A DNA stretch of 64,000 nt from NCBI RefSeq assembly GCF_004803755.1, contig NZ_CP032311.1:2310501-2374500 (forward strand), given 5' to 3'. The notes beneath the pieces are model-generated. The model saw only the letters and a program-made list of their open reading frames with translations, was not told the DNA's origin and searched no databases. A program made the position numbers and the translations under genes. This document shows positions 24,068-29,599 of the stretch, piece after piece (positions within the stretch are counted from its first letter, which is position 1; the number at the start of each line of letters is the position of its first letter). The stretch comes from Pseudomonas sp. DG56-2 (GTDB lineage: Bacteria > Pseudomonadota > Gammaproteobacteria > Pseudomonadales > Pseudomonadaceae).

Positions 24068-25060
24068 ATGAGCACTGTGATGCAGGATGGATTCGGGCGG
24101 CAGATCGATTATTTGCGGATGTCGGTGACCGATCGTTGTGATTTTCGCTGTGTGTACTGCATGGCCAAGAACATGACTTTCTTGCCGCGTCAGCAGGTGT
24201 TGACCCTGGAGGAATTGCAGCGTCTGGCAACGCTGTTTGTCGGCCAGGGGGTTCGCAAGATTCGCCTGACCGGGGGGGAGCCGTTGATTCGTCCGGGTAT
24301 CGTCGATCTGTGCCGTCACATTGCCGCCTTGCCGGGTTTGCGTGAGTTGGTGATGACCAGCAATGGTTCACAGTTGCAGCGTTTGTCGCGGCCGTTGGTC
24401 GAGGCCGGGGTCAAGCGCATGAATATCAGTCTCGACAGTCTGGATGCCGAGCGGTTTCGGGCGATTACCCGTAACGGTGATCTTGATCAGGTGCTGCGTG
24501 GTATCGAGACTGCCAGTCGCGCCGGGTTCGAACGGGTCAAGCTCAATTGCGTGGTGATGAAGGGGCGCAATTTCGATGAGGTGCTGCCGTTGGTGCAGTT
24601 CGCCATTGATCAGGGTATCGATATTACCTTTATCGAAGAGATGCCTTTGGGCGAGGTGGGTCGTTCACGGGGTGAGTCGTTCTGCTCCAGTGAGGAGGTT
24701 CGCGGGCTGGTTGCCAGTCGTTATGCCTTGCTCGACAGTGCCGAGAACAGTGGTGGGCCGGCACGTTATGTGCGGTTGGTTGAACATTCTGATACGCGTA
24801 TCGGCTTCATTTCGCCTAACAGCCATAATTTCTGCGCCAGTTGCAATCGGGTGCGGATGACGGTGGAGGGGCGGTTGTTGTTGTGCCTGGGCCAGGAGGA
24901 TTCGTTGGATCTGCGAGGGTTGTTGCGGCGCTATCCATTGGATGATCAGCCGATTGTCAGTGCGGTGCAGCAGGCGTTGCGGGGGAAGCCGTTGCGCCAC
25001 GACTTCAATCCTGATGGAGAGGTACAGATTTTGCGGTTCATGAATATGAGTGGCGGGTGA
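24068..25060 (+). CDS. moaA: GTP 3',8-cyclase MoaA
   Basis: A 330-residue radical-SAM enzyme that starts molybdopterin synthesis from GTP. The N-terminal cluster motif CDFRCVYC and the GGEPLIR motif are present. The C-terminal second cluster has CASCNRVR and a later Cys (LLLCLGQE). The ATG at 24068 begins [24 protein letters not shown], with AAGGGGAA upstream. Its third positions are less GC-rich than the nar genes. It is the last gene of the nar operon (P. aeruginosa moaA1 position). Confidence 0.95.
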
Positions 25061-25098
25061 GGGCGTGCGCTTGGCCGGGGTGAAGGACCTGCCCCACC

Positions 25099-25128
25099 AG
25101 GGGCCCTGCGCTGCGCTTCGGGTCCCCT
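25099..25128. repeat. GC-rich hairpin downstream of moaA
   Basis: AGGGGCCC and GGGTCCCCT form an imperfect stem (one mismatch) around a 13-base loop. It may be a remnant intergenic repeat or a transcript 3' stabiliser. No T-run follows. Confidence 0.35.
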
Positions 25129-25146
25129 CGCTGCAGATTGAGATCA

Positions 25147-25176
25147 AGAGCACAACTGACTGTGCTCTTTTTTTTT
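25147..25176 (+). terminator. Rho-independent terminator of the nar operon
   Basis: AGAGCACA-ACTGAC-TGTGCTCT forms a perfect 8-bp stem with a 6-base loop, followed by a run of nine T. Confidence 0.9.
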
Positions 25177-25213
25177 GTGTGCGTGGGGAATGGTTTTTTG
25201 CTTTCCCCTGGTC

Positions 25214-25227
25214 TTGACGTCGGTCAA
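25214..25227 (+). promoter_or_regulatory. ANR/DNR box of nrdD
   Basis: TTGACGTCGGTCAA is a perfect palindrome of the TTGAC-N4-GTCAA type. TAATCT at 25250-25255 is centred 32 bp downstream; the start would be near 25262. Confidence 0.75.
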
Positions 25228-25255
25228 TTTTGCGCGGTGCGTTTGCACGTAATCT

Positions 25256-25271
25256 CCACTGCATATTGTGT
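25256..25271. promoter_or_regulatory. NrdR box 1
   Basis: CCACTGCATATTGTGT matches 13 of 16 positions of ACACWATATATWGTGT. It overlaps the predicted transcription start of nrdD. Confidence 0.6.
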
Positions 25272-25286
25272 TTTTTGGTTTATAAA

Positions 25287-25302
25287 CATCTATATGTAGT
25301 GT
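25287..25302. promoter_or_regulatory. NrdR box 2
   Basis: CATCTATATGTAGTGT matches 12 of 16 NrdR consensus positions. It starts exactly 31 bp after box 1, the usual three-turn spacing of tandem NrdR sites. Confidence 0.6.
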
Positions 25303-25313
25303 TTGGAGGGTAA

Positions 25314-27326
25314 ATGCACAGCACGCTGATCAGGGTGGGGAATAACCAGCTGTATAAGCGCGACGGCAGTTTGGTTGCTTTTGATGCCGATAAGATTCGT
25401 CAGGCTCTGATTGCTGCCGGGAAGGCTACCGGTGAGTACGCTGAGGTTGAGGTTGATGGGTTGTTGGCGGCGGTGCTGGCGCATCTTGAAAATTTTGCGC
25501 AGTTGCATGTAGAGCAAGTACAGGATCGGGTCGAGCGGGTGTTGATGGACGCCGGTTATTTTCTGTCGTTGCGCGCGTACATCGTTTATCGCGAACAGCA
25601 CGGGCGTTTGCGTCGTGATCGCAAGACGCTGGTCGAAGTCGCAACATCGATGAACGAGTACCTCAACCGCGAGGACTGGCGGGTGCAGGCCAATGCCAAT
25701 CAGGGCTATTCCCTTGGCGGGCTGGTACTTAATGTGTCCGGCAAGGTCACGGCCAATTACTGGCTCGATGAGGTCTACAGCGAAGCCATAGGCCGCGCGC
25801 ACCGTGAAGCCGACTTGCATGTGCACGACCTGGATATGCTCGCCGGTTATTGCGCGGGCTGGTCGCTGCGTACGCTGTTGCACGAAGGCCTCAATGGTGT
25901 GCCCGGGCGCGTCGAGGCTGGTCCGCCCAAGCACTTGAGCAGCGCCCTGGGGCAGATGGTCAATTTTCTCGGTACCTTGCAGAACGAGTGGGCCGGGGCG
26001 CAGGCGTTCAGTTCCTTCGATACTTACCTGGCACCCTACGTGCGCAAGGATCGACTCGGCTACGAAGAGATCCGCCAGGCCATTCAGGAGTTCATCTACA
26101 ACCTCAACGTGCCATCGCGTTGGGGCACGCAAACACCGTTTACCAACCTGACGTTCGACTGGGTTTGCCCGGAAGATTTGCGCGAGCAGATTCCGGTGAT
26201 TGGCGGTGAGGAAATGCCGTTCGCCTACGGTGAGCTACAAGCCGAAATGGACCTGCTCAACCGCGCCTATATCGAAGTGATGCAGGCCGGTGATGCCAAG
26301 GGTCGGGTGTTCACCTTTCCTATTCCGACCTACAACATTACCCATGATTTTCCCTGGGACAGCGAGAACGCCGAGCGCTTGTTCGAGATGACTGCGCGCT
26401 ACGGTTTGCCATATTTCCAGAACTTCCTCAATTCCGACATGCTGCCAAACCAGGTGCGTTCGATGTGCTGCCGCCTGCAACTGGATGTGCGCGAGTTGCT
26501 CAAGCGCGGTGGGGGGTTGTTCGGGTCGGCGGAGCAGACCGGTTCGTTGGGGGTGGTGACGATAAATTGCGCGCGTCTGGGCTACTTGTTCAAGGGTGAT
26601 ATCAAGGGGCTGCTGGAGCGTCTCGATACCTTGATGGAATTGGCCATGGAAAGCCTGGAGGTCAAGCGCAAGGTGATCCAGCACCACATGGACGCAGGTC
26701 TATACCCCTATACCAAGCGTTACCTGGGCACGTTGCGCAATCACTTCTCTACCATCGGCGTTAACGGCCTGCACGAAATGCTGCGCAACTACAGCGATGA
26801 CCAGATGGGCCTGCATACCGAGCAAGGTCGGCGATTTGCCCTGAATCTGCTGGACCATGTGCGCGCTACCCTCGTGCGGTTCCAGGAGGAGAGTGGCCAC
26901 CTTTACAACCTTGAAGCGACCCCGGCTGAAGGCACGACCTACCGCTTCGCCAAAGAAGACTTCAAGCGTTTTCCCGGCATTCTCCAGGCCGGCAGCCCAC
27001 AGGCGCCGTACTACACCAACTCCTCGCAACTGCCGGTGGGCTATACCGACGATCCGTTCGAGGCGCTTGAATTGCAGGACGAGTTGCAGTGCAAGTACAC
27101 CGGCGGCACGGTGCTGCACTTGTACATGGCCGAACGTATTTCATCAGCCCAGGCCTGCAAGCAATTGGTTCGCAATGCACTGGGACGCTTCCGCTTGCCG
27201 TACCTGACCATTACCCCGACGTTCTCCATCTGCCCGGTGCATGGCTACCTTGATGGCGAACACGAATTTTGCCCCAAGTGTGACGAGGCACTGTTGCTCG
27301 CGCAGCAGGACGGCACTGTTCACTGA
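25314..27326 (+). CDS. nrdD: Class III anaerobic ribonucleotide reductase NrdD, lacking its glycyl-radical segment
   Basis: A 670-residue catalytic subunit for anaerobic dNTP synthesis. An ATP-cone regulatory domain (about 8-100) precedes the ten-stranded barrel. The active-site region is intact (NQVRSMCCRLQLDVREL). The zinc-type C-terminus is CPVHGYLDGEHEFCPKC. The protein then stops at TGA (27324-27326) before the glycyl-radical loop that normally ends NrdD. That loop is in a separate ORF 30 bases downstream in the same frame. RBS GGAGGG. ANR and NrdR sites lie upstream. Confidence 0.93.
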   Translation: MHSTLIRVGNNQLYKRDGSLVAFDADKIRQALIAAGKATGEYAEVEVDGLLAAVLAHLENFAQLHVEQVQDRVERVLMDAGYFLSLRAYIVYREQHGRLRRDRKTLVEVATSMNEYLNREDWRVQANANQGYSLGGLVLNVSGKVTANYWLDEVYSEAIGRAHREADLHVHDLDMLAGYCAGWSLRTLLHEGLNGVPGRVEAGPPKHLSSALGQMVNFLGTLQNEWAGAQAFSSFDTYLAPYVRKDRLGYEEIRQAIQEFIYNLNVPSRWGTQTPFTNLTFDWVCPEDLREQIPVIGGEEMPFAYGELQAEMDLLNRAYIEVMQAGDAKGRVFTFPIPTYNITHDFPWDSENAERLFEMTARYGLPYFQNFLNSDMLPNQVRSMCCRLQLDVRELLKRGGGLFGSAEQTGSLGVVTINCARLGYLFKGDIKGLLERLDTLMELAMESLEVKRKVIQHHMDAGLYPYTKRYLGTLRNHFSTIGVNGLHEMLRNYSDDQMGLHTEQGRRFALNLLDHVRATLVRFQEESGHLYNLEATPAEGTTYRFAKEDFKRFPGILQAGSPQAPYYTNSSQLPVGYTDDPFEALELQDELQCKYTGGTVLHLYMAERISSAQACKQLVRNALGRFRLPYLTITPTFSICPVHGYLDGEHEFCPKCDEALLLAQQDGTVH

Positions 27327-27356
27327 TCCGATCAATTCAACGCAAGGAGCTTCACC

Positions 27357-27524
27357 ATGACTGCACTGCAAACCCTACCTGTGGCACAACGTCAACGCTG
27401 CGAAGTCTGGACCCGCGTGATGGGCTATCACCGCCCGGTGTCGGCCTTCAATCCAGGTAAACAGTCCGAGCATCGCGAACGCCAGCACTTTACCGAGTGC
27501 TCGGCATCGGCCGGGCGTCAATGA
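27357..27524 (+). CDS. Stand-alone glycyl-radical peptide of NrdD (split C-terminus)
   Basis: A 55-residue ORF reading MTALQTLPVAQRQRC, then EVWTRVMGYHRPVSAFNPGK. RVMGY is the glycyl-radical signature of class III ribonucleotide reductases, with Gly23 as the expected radical site. It has its own AAGGAG 7 bases before ATG and overlaps the nrdG start by ATGA. It is in the same frame as nrdD, separated only by TGA plus 30 bases. The product would have to associate with the NrdD core and be activated by NrdG. Alternatives are readthrough of the TGA, a recent nonsense change or a sequencing error. Confidence 0.85.
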   Translation: MTALQTLPVAQRQRCEVWTRVMGYHRPVSAFNPGKQSEHRERQHFTECSASAGRQ

Positions 27525-28216
27525 CCCGAGCGTTACGGGTCGGGGGCATGGTGCCCCTGACCACCCTCGATTATCCGGGCAAGTTGTCCTGCGTCTTGTT
27601 CTGCCAGGGTTGCGCCTGGCGTTGTCGTTACTGCCATAATCCTCAACTGATTGGGCCGCGTGGCGCCGAGGAAGTCCCTTGGCACCAGGTATTGGCGTTC
27701 TTGCAGCGCCGCCAGGGCCTGCTCGATGCGGTGGTCTTCAGTGGTGGCGAGGCAACGTTGCAGGACAGCCTGCCGGAGGCAATGGCGCAGGTGCGGCACA
27801 TGGGCTTTGGGGTTGGCCTGCACAGTGCAGGTATCAAGCCGCAGGCCTTTGCCCGGGCGCTGTCGGGGGCCGATTGGGTTGGCTTCGACGTCAAGGCGCT
27901 GGCCGAAGAGTGCGCATTGATAACCCGAGTGCGCGGCAGTGGTGTGGCCAACTGGCGCAGCCTGGATATGCTCCTGGACAGTGGCGTGGATTACGAATGC
28001 CGGACTACGGTGCATTGGGATCTGATCGATCCGGCTCGGTTGTTGACCCTGGCCCAGCGCTTGAAAGAGCGTGGGGTAGAACACTTCGTCGTTCAGCAGG
28101 TACGCACCGCGCAGATGCTCGATATGAGCCTGCCGAAGGTATCCATGCACGCCGCATTACCTGCGTTATGGGACACCCTCGGCGAGTTGTTTGCGCAGTT
28201 CGAGGTGCGCGGCTAA
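27521..28216 (+). CDS. nrdG: Anaerobic ribonucleotide reductase activating enzyme NrdG
   Basis: A 231-residue radical-SAM activase that generates the glycyl radical on NrdD. The CX3CX2C motif is CAWRCRYC in the segment FCQGCAWRCRYCHNPQ, and FSGGEATLQ is the GGE-like SAM motif. The ATG at 27521 overlaps the stop of the glycyl-radical peptide, so enzyme and substrate peptide are translationally coupled. A longer in-frame start at 27497 overlaps that peptide further and lacks an SD. Confidence 0.92.
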   Translation: MTRALRVGGMVPLTTLDYPGKLSCVLFCQGCAWRCRYCHNPQLIGPRGAEEVPWHQVLAFLQRRQGLLDAVVFSGGEATLQDSLPEAMAQVRHMGFGVGLHSAGIKPQAFARALSGADWVGFDVKALAEECALITRVRGSGVANWRSLDMLLDSGVDYECRTTVHWDLIDPARLLTLAQRLKERGVEHFVVQQVRTAQMLDMSLPKVSMHAALPALWDTLGELFAQFEVRG

Positions 28217-28219
28217 GGC

Positions 28220-29599
28220 TTAGAGCCAACCCCAGAATTGCAGCCACCAGCCATAACCGACGACGCTAATGGCTGCCAGTAAACAGGCGCCTGCTACACC
28301 GCGTCGGAACAGGGAGGTTTTCTGGCCTGCCAGAAGCTTCCCTCCCAACCAGGCACTCCAGAGCATGGCCGCAATCAACAGCGCGGCCCTGGCAGGTTGC
28401 ACCCACTCCAGCAACAAGCCTTCATAGCGCAGCAGCTTTACCGTGGTTGCCGACAGGCCGAGAAACAGCCCGGCGCCGCCGAGCGGCGTGAGTGCCAGGC
28501 TCAGGGGGCCAAACATTTCAGCTTGGCCGACAAGTCGGGCCGCCAGGCGCAGCAAGAGCCATAGGCCCGTGCCCAGTATCAGCGCACTGGCGCTCAGGTA
28601 CAGCAGAATGCTGAAGCCATCGAGCCAACTGAAGCTGTCGTTGAGTTGTGGGTAATGGGTCAGCAGCCACCAAGGCGCGTTGTCGTGCAGGGGCCAGAGA
28701 ATATCGTGCTCCACCAGCCACTGCGCCAGGTATTGCTTGAGCGCGATGAACCACGGGCTGACGGTCCACTGGAATGCACCCATGGCCAGGCCAATGACGC
28801 CGAACAGCAACAAGCGGCTGTCCCAGGGAGACGGCGTGTGTGTGATGGAATGAAGAATTTCTTCGTTGCTGGAGCGGGCAATCAGTTGCACCGCACCGCG
28901 TTGCCCGCTGCATCGGCCGCAGGCGTGGCAGTCGCTGGCGCCCTGCATCCGGCGAATATCCAGGAGCGGGGCACAGTTGGGCGGGGGCAGGCGTGCGGCG
29001 GTGTTCTCCTTCCAGCGTTGTTCATCGACGTGAAAGTGTACGGGCGCCAGGCGGGCGAGCAGGGCAAAGACACCACTGACCGGGCACAAGTAGCGGCACC
29101 ACACCCGTTTGCCGCGTGCAAACAGCAAGCCGACGACAACGGCGGCTACGGTCGATCCTCCGAGTATCAGCAGGGCCGCCTGGGCGTAGTCGTAAACGCT
29201 GATGAGTTGGCCATACACGGTGGTCAGGCAGAAGGCCAGGGCGGGCCAACCGCCCCAGCGCACCCAGCGGGGTACACCCATGCCCTTGCCATACTGGCTG
29301 GCCCATTCGCTCAAGGAACCTTCCGGGCACAGCACGCCGCACCACAGGCGTCCGAAGAGCACAATCGACAGCAGCACGAATGGCCACCAGATGCCCCAGA
29401 ACAGGAACTGGGCGAACAGGGTGAGGTTGTCGAGCATTCGTGCCTGGCTATCAGGCAAGGGCAGCAGCGCTGGTAGCACCAGCAGCAGCGCGTAGAACAG
29501 CACCACCGCCCATTGCATGACCCGAATCAGCCCGGCATGCCGACGCATGCCATCACCCAGTTGTTGCAACAAGCGATTGCGCAAACTCAGGCTGGACAT
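28220..29599 (-). CDS. ftrD: Membrane polyferredoxin FtrD (ferrous iron transport)
   Basis: A 459-residue NapH/FixG-like membrane protein. It carries two CxxxCP-type segments (WCGVLCPEGSLSEW, WCRYLCPVSGVF) and a further cluster CHACGRCSG. Several helices precede and follow them. In FtrABCD systems FtrD is thought to pass electrons for Fe(III)/Fe(II) cycling at the permease. It overlaps ftrC by 13 bases; the ATG at 29599 was preferred to the in-frame start at 29650, which lies deep in ftrC. Confidence 0.87.
   Translation of the reverse strand: MSSLSLRNRLLQQLGDGMRRHAGLIRVMQWAVVLFYALLLVLPALLPLPDSQARMLDNLTLFAQFLFWGIWWPFVLLSIVLFGRLWCGVLCPEGSLSEWASQYGKGMGVPRWVRWGGWPALAFCLTTVYGQLISVYDYAQAALLILGGSTVAAVVVGLLFARGKRVWCRYLCPVSGVFALLARLAPVHFHVDEQRWKENTAARLPPPNCAPLLDIRRMQGASDCHACGRCSGQRGAVQLIARSSNEEILHSITHTPSPWDSRLLLFGVIGLAMGAFQWTVSPWFIALKQYLAQWLVEHDILWPLHDNAPWWLLTHYPQLNDSFSWLDGFSILLYLSASALILGTGLWLLLRLAARLVGQAEMFGPLSLALTPLGGAGLFLGLSATTVKLLRYEGLLLEWVQPARAALLIAAMLWSAWLGGKLLAGQKTSLFRRGVAGACLLAAISVVGYGWWLQFWGWL

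Follow-up and report, generated by a model that had tools for sequence, protein, structure and literature searches.

Conserved division of nrdD into a core gene and a separate glycyl-radical domain gene in Pseudomonas and other Proteobacteria

Class III ribonucleotide reductase (NrdD) produces DNA building blocks in the absence of oxygen, and in its fused forms of solved structure (P. copri, T. maritima, T4 and S. thermophilus) the radical loop resides on the same chain as the remainder of the enzyme. Division of a reductase subunit is documented for class II, and the biochemical paper on that enzyme presents NrdJ as the only split reductase found in a non-viral organism (PMC4520616). YfiD exemplifies a free-standing glycyl-radical domain: it has been described as serving pyruvate formate-lyase as a spare part, and other enzymes are supposed to have spare parts too (Andorfer 2021, PMC8683613). 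Here we describe an nrdD locus of Pseudomonas sp. DG56-2, analysed within a stretch of 64,000 nt of contig NZ_CP032311.1 (the window), in which the radical loop is encoded on a separate chain of about 55 residues. We use GRD for the glycyl-radical domain and core for the part of NrdD without the glycyl-radical motif.

The nrdD gene of the window is terminated by a TGA just past the C-terminal zinc motif CPVHGY...CPKCDE. A small open reading frame (ORF) of 55 aa follows, which starts at the ATG at 27357 downstream of an AAGGAG, carries QRCEVWTRVMGYHRPVSAFNPGKQSEHRERQHF and ends in an ATGA (27521-27524) where its stop overlaps the start codon of nrdG. Both ORFs share a frame, and the intervening 30 nt contain no further stop. 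The original prediction had placed nrdD, the AAGGAG, the small ORF, the overlap with nrdG and the 30-nt gap exactly as we find them (table 1). The Pfam NRDD family (PF13597) divides over the two ORFs, with columns 2-528 on the core (576.7 bits) and columns 530-562 on the 55-aa ORF (35.5 bits, E 6.4e-9, cut-off 26.2). Besides the NRDD barrel, the core contains an ATP-cone (PF03477, 65.6 bits) and matches NF006126 at 1118.5 bits (cut-off 548); in the putative zinc motif CPVHGY...CPKC, residues C640, H643, C653 and C656 are invariant (alignment A2, 70 rows). A class III activase adjoins, its match to TIGR02495 (NrdG2) being well above the cut-off of 131.15 bits. The glycyl-radical motif, in contrast, is not on the barrel chain but on the separate 55-aa ORF, and the locus thus encodes a two-chain variant of the class III reductase. 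Assignment to the GrcA/YfiD group fails, as the PF01228 Gly_radical domain has no match to the 55-aa ORF at E up to 10 and the core has no radical domain of its own to be replaced. Likewise, the pieces are not those of a split, B12-dependent class II NrdJab, since both belong to the NRDD family.

The division is not confined to this strain. A search with the 55-aa sequence gave a match in 43 of 199 genomes within the genus, far from chance, one of these matches (G021) being a remnant only. Within the family, and going by match counts, PF13597 matches 112 of 298 genomes, twice in 98, three times in 2 and once in 12; among the last, ten matches span the full model with at least one stop, that of G272 begins at the end of a contig and is fragmentary, and that of G464 is uninterrupted. 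G427 additionally holds a different, uninterrupted nrdD (332 bits). Core, GRD and nrdG are found together in all 31 Pseudomonas loci with a GRD that were examined. With a GRD alignment as query, 36 of 369 genomes in the class and 19 of 398 in the phylum gave matches, some of which are not split. A scan of the same kind over GTDB representatives returned at least 575 related loci, 80 of which were taken for study, including Halomonas, Marinobacter, Billgrantia, Kangiella, Thiobacillus, Propionivibrio and Janthinobacterium. In each of four annotated plasmid cases (C. necator pHG1, Azospira, Bradyrhizobium and Sulfuricurvum) three neighbouring genes encode the core, the small protein and the activase; in three of these cases the small gene is itself called nrdD, indicating that NCBI annotation names the small protein by homology. 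The split NrdD is therefore a conserved lineage trait and not a strain oddity; the original prediction had allowed for such a trait, and it proves wider than the pseudomonads. A few loci depart from the common arrangement. In L276 (G168) the split operon occurs in two inverted copies about 6 kb apart, the second of which looks decayed: its nrdG match is broken into two overlapping parts, and the start of its core is on another piece. The G021 remnant (L278) consists of a GRD tail and a partial nrdG, with no core within the 4 kb stretch, while L060 (G302) is a remnant with a stop in the GRD directly after RVMG.

Split and fused loci were gathered with split queries, and the set is consequently biased towards the split form. 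A GRD match was present in 190 of the 191 loci examined, 179 of them split, 9 fused and 2 (L143 and L183) without a core in the stretch. The set includes duplicates (the window's own locus appears four times); counted once, 173 distinct loci have both GRD and core, 164 split and 9 fused, with a doubtful core end in two of the split loci (L088, L176) and with three of the fused ones (L189-L191) being distant NrdDs of 24-26% identity. Readthrough, selenocysteine insertion or programmed frameshifting might in principle join both ORFs into one NrdD, as the common frame and the lack of a further stop in the window could suggest. However, measured from the core stop, the GRD of the 164 distinct split loci lies in frame 0 in 42 cases, in frame 1 in 62 and in frame 2 in 60. 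The core stop is TAA in 22 and TAG in 12 besides TGA in 129 (one runs off the end), and over the whole set the gap between core and GRD varies between -38 and 142 nt. Given this spread of frames and stop codons, neither readthrough, recoding nor a single sequencing error can explain the split, and the shared frame pointed out by the original prediction, although true in the window, is accidental. The GRD also possesses start signals of its own. An ATG is available in all 60 loci of a thinned split set, and a Shine-Dalgarno (SD) sequence of at least 4 nt precedes the best-chosen start in 59 of these (the start score favoured ATG); at the nearest upstream ATG it is found for 50 of 60 GRDs versus 744 of 5393 ATGs of the same loci.

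The strongest single case for the split is a Gammaproteobacteria genome (G1114; 1.9 Mb over 40 contigs, with completeness rated at 100% and contamination at 0%). Its sole NrdD core found by PF13597 (681 aa, ending in CPKCDQEKIAAKLKSRLPA) and its sole GRD are 9.1 kb apart on one contig, with the GRD adjoining nrdG and several ORFs, mostly on the opposite strand, in between. There the GRD can act only in trans, which refutes a joining of the two ORFs as a general mechanism and makes it a most improbable account of the window. Equally hard to credit is a decaying or mis-sequenced nrdD locus. Some relatives have indeed decayed (L278, L060 and the second operon copy of L276), but the source genome is a single contig of 5.82 Mb rated 100% complete, nrdG is intact and the architecture is repeated over genera and classes. 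Moreover, the GRD is under purifying selection, with a median ratio of nonsynonymous to synonymous substitution (dN/dS) of 0.148 for 557 of the 741 pairs formed by 39 distinct 55-aa ORFs (the others being saturated or too close), and a dN/dS of 0.15 speaks against decay. In an alternative scenario the small protein would be only a repair or regulatory part, with the core using another radical source, given that YfiD/GrcA are free GRDs usable as spare parts (PMC8683613). Yet the core stops ahead of the radical motif, the source genome has one nrdD and one GRD, with no PF01228 glycyl-radical protein found in it, and core, GRD and nrdG stay together in the Pseudomonas loci described above; we regard this scenario as very unlikely.

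In this context, we put forward that nrdD, the small ORF and nrdG very probably constitute a class III ribonucleotide reductase with a catalytic subunit of two polypeptides. The core chain would contribute the ATP-cone, the barrel and the zinc motif, and the second chain, of about 55 residues, the GRD with the radical glycine, the two being separated in the linker that joins the zinc CxxC(DE) to RQxCEVWTRVMGY. Made from its own start codon, the GRD would accumulate as a separate peptide, bind the core at the place of the C-terminal domain of fused NrdD, be activated by NrdG and S-adenosylmethionine and, carrying the radical, hand it to the active-site cysteine, in support of turnover. The GRD pose of solved class III reductases is compatible with a tethered model made by AlphaFold. 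The original prediction had likewise preferred a functional split, its radical peptide provided in trans, to decay. Conservation in Pseudomonadaceae and other Proteobacteria and the independent start and SD support this reading, which is further backed by purifying selection, by the varying frame and stop codon, by the genes separated by 9.1 kb and by natural fused homologues.

These fused relatives reveal the identity of the two pieces. NrdDs with 53-75% identity to the window chain hold both parts on one chain, and several of them are named alphaproteobacterial or actinobacterial. One example (P0250) carries CPHCDEEAKAAGTFDEEARQPCEVWTRVMGY, while L185, of another alphaproteobacterial group, has a shorter junction, CPKCGEETKVWTRVMGY. 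As the fused junctions differ, the split point corresponds to a variable linker, bounded by the zinc CxxC(DE) and RQxCEVWTR. A tree of 103 cores (quick IQ-TREE with SH-aLRT only, 45 of 100 inner branches being unresolved), calculated without the outlier L189 (branch length 10) and with P0352 left unlabelled, needs at least six changes between its 60 split and 42 fused rows, three of them forced by strongly supported branches. The seven changes (three forced) of a first tree with 104 rows were inflated by L189 and by P0352, a row without GRD that was judged on its protein alone and had been counted as split. The fused L033, from the same genus, groups as sister of the window core at 93% identity (support 99); the set of nine to which both belong is otherwise split (support 97), and a re-fusion would be the simplest reading of L033. 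In L033/L275 (G464) the GRD is fused directly behind CPKC, and no ATP-cone match is found in the 4-kb stretch. The split Sulfuricurvum is sister to 21 fused rows (support 100). For several deeper changes between split and fused forms either direction is possible, and rows L186-L188 are long-branched.

Other apparent fusions were rejected. Long open frames near some GRDs hinted at a fusion of GRD and NrdG, but they are alternative frames of GC-rich DNA; in the 16 long-frame loci where the GYHRP motif was found, the open frame ends 29-44 residues past the motif start. Apparent in-frame fusions in G259, G261 and G240 are, in the DNA, stop-to-stop ORFs of 78, 61 and 63 aa. The label of fused that our script gave to 18 viral loci, L272-L274 and L277 is an artefact of three added queries that contain the GRD, while L275 is truly fused.

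Free-standing GRDs occur also in phage-like contigs. A scan of IMG/VR with the GRD alignment found 146 relatives, 80 of which were taken (L192-L271, 64 distinct), all with the motif. The window core matches only L269 within these 80 viral stretches; of 50 viral records searched over their full length, which are unrated and possibly fragments, 49 have a GRD and lack an NrdD core. When the longest or second-longest ORF of 20 viral loci was compared with PHROGs, 10 fell into virion or integration families, 5 into replication or nucleotide families and 1 into a function-unknown family, while 4 gave nothing at 1e-10. In L220 the GRD has a portal gene on one side and a minor head gene on the other, and in L212 it adjoins an integrase, with an endolysin gene nearby; both GRDs, like those of the window and of the chromosomal L183, match phrog_4132, a function-unknown family. 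Orphan GRDs were further found in two cellular genomes that hold a split nrdD as well. One, in a Thiobacillus metagenome-assembled genome (G1246, L143 4001-4156), is downstream of a phage tail gene, with the complete split nrdD elsewhere; the other (G731, L286 4836-4997) is among YqaJ, SSB, RecT and a ribonucleotide reductase barrel gene. A shared phage module, sought with these four genes in the 80 viral loci, was not apparent (SSB 2, YqaJ 3, RecT 0, reductase 0). Against 50,697 cultured-phage records the window GRD matched only ANMV-1 virus (E limit 1e-3), and two viral GRDs matched ANMV-1 and one unannotated faecal phage (E limit 1e-2). The genomic settings would fit a phage-borne spare part. 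By analogy with T4 Y06I, which serves pyruvate formate-lyase, NrdD-type GRDs might be interchangeable; phages whose hosts have a two-chain enzyme would then bring a free GRD of their own, which might dock on the host core, be charged by host NrdG and keep or restore deoxynucleotide synthesis in infection or after oxygen damage, a proposal that we hold tentatively and consider somewhat more doubtful than probable.

Two features of the GRD sequences deserve mention. Cys15 of the window GRD, eight residues ahead of the predicted radical glycine, is invariant in 12 aligned split GRDs (alignment A1); a cysteine at this position is present in 76 of 80 viral GRDs and in the fused L033, L121 and P0250, and absent from the fused L175, L185, L187 and L188. 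The viral GRDs of L210, L216, L220, L227, L230, L260 and L270 are preceded by an in-frame N-terminal Cys-rich stretch (e.g., PCAHL...C...GR..P..C..CAAY), which perhaps represents a substitute metal site.

The nrdD operon is situated downstream of nar genes and moaA, which suggests a context of nitrate respiration. A pattern search with the FNR-type box consensus returned five TTGAY-N4-RTCAA boxes in the window (4594, 7208, 13542, 25214 and 31469), which would fit a gene cluster under anaerobic control. A Dnr box has been reported for P. aeruginosa nrdDG (PMC5645315). Rfam gave no match at gathering threshold for a structured RNA at the junction of nrdD and GRD (25000-28300).

Table 1. Features of the nrdD locus and its upstream neighbourhood (positions in the window)
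Feature	Position	Strand	Remarks
narG, narH, narJ, narI, peptidyl-prolyl-isomerase-like gene, moaA	16363..25060	+	ORFs named by eye, not by profile search
FNR/ANR/DNR-type box TTGACGTCGGTCAA	25214..25227	+	upstream of nrdD; pattern search
nrdD core	25314..27326	+	670 aa, 75.8 kDa; ATP-cone, barrel, zinc motif; without glycyl-radical motif
TGA stop of nrdD	27324..27326	+	30 nt ahead of next ATG
Shine-Dalgarno AAGGAG of small ORF	27344..27349	+	SD-like sequence also in relatives
Separate GRD protein	27357..27524	+	55 aa, 6.4 kDa, pI (isoelectric point) 10.1; RVMGY with predicted radical Gly23
nrdG, NrdG2-type radical SAM activase	27521..28216	+	TIGR02495, 213.8 bits

Among the literature matches listed we found no description of a split NrdD with a separate GRD, and other papers, e.g., Siedow 1999, could mention one. 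The accessible portions of two family-wide analyses (PMC9669993, PMC9531940) make no mention of it, and in the RNRdb paper (PMC2795772) the word "split" does not occur in the main text. The split NrdD contradicts the statement of PMC4520616 that NrdJ is the only non-viral split reductase, and corrects it within the same bacterial group. If the mechanism proposed above holds, this would be a glycyl-radical enzyme designed to keep its radical on a small, exchangeable subunit. Two questions can then be put to the test: does NrdG charge the peptide when free or only within the complex, and is a radical peptide cleaved by oxygen simply exchanged for a fresh one, as would suit facultative denitrifiers? 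Heterologous studies using only nrdD and nrdG of such species would, on the same reading, omit an essential part. Specialists should find clear interest in a radical-bearing subunit made as a chain of its own, in how widely it is spread and in the conflict with a printed statement.

Compared with described systems, the locus resembles NrdJa/NrdJb of P. aeruginosa in that a reductase subunit of Proteobacteria is split into two co-operonic genes; however, the small part of NrdJab (229 aa) handles disulfide exchange, whereas the small part in the window carries the radical motif (PMC4520616). Phage nrdD genes with introns, inteins or breaks are similarly in more than one coding piece, but those are intervening elements or isolated breaks (PMC3653736), while here a clean, conserved split occurs at one place in cellular genomes. 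With YfiD/GrcA and T4 Y06I (PMC8683613) the window GRD would share activation of a free GRD by a radical SAM enzyme and docking to a large subunit. The window GRD is, in contrast, of the NrdD type (PF13597) and not of PF01228, and YfiD replaces the damaged domain of a full-length enzyme, whereas the window core never has a domain of its own.
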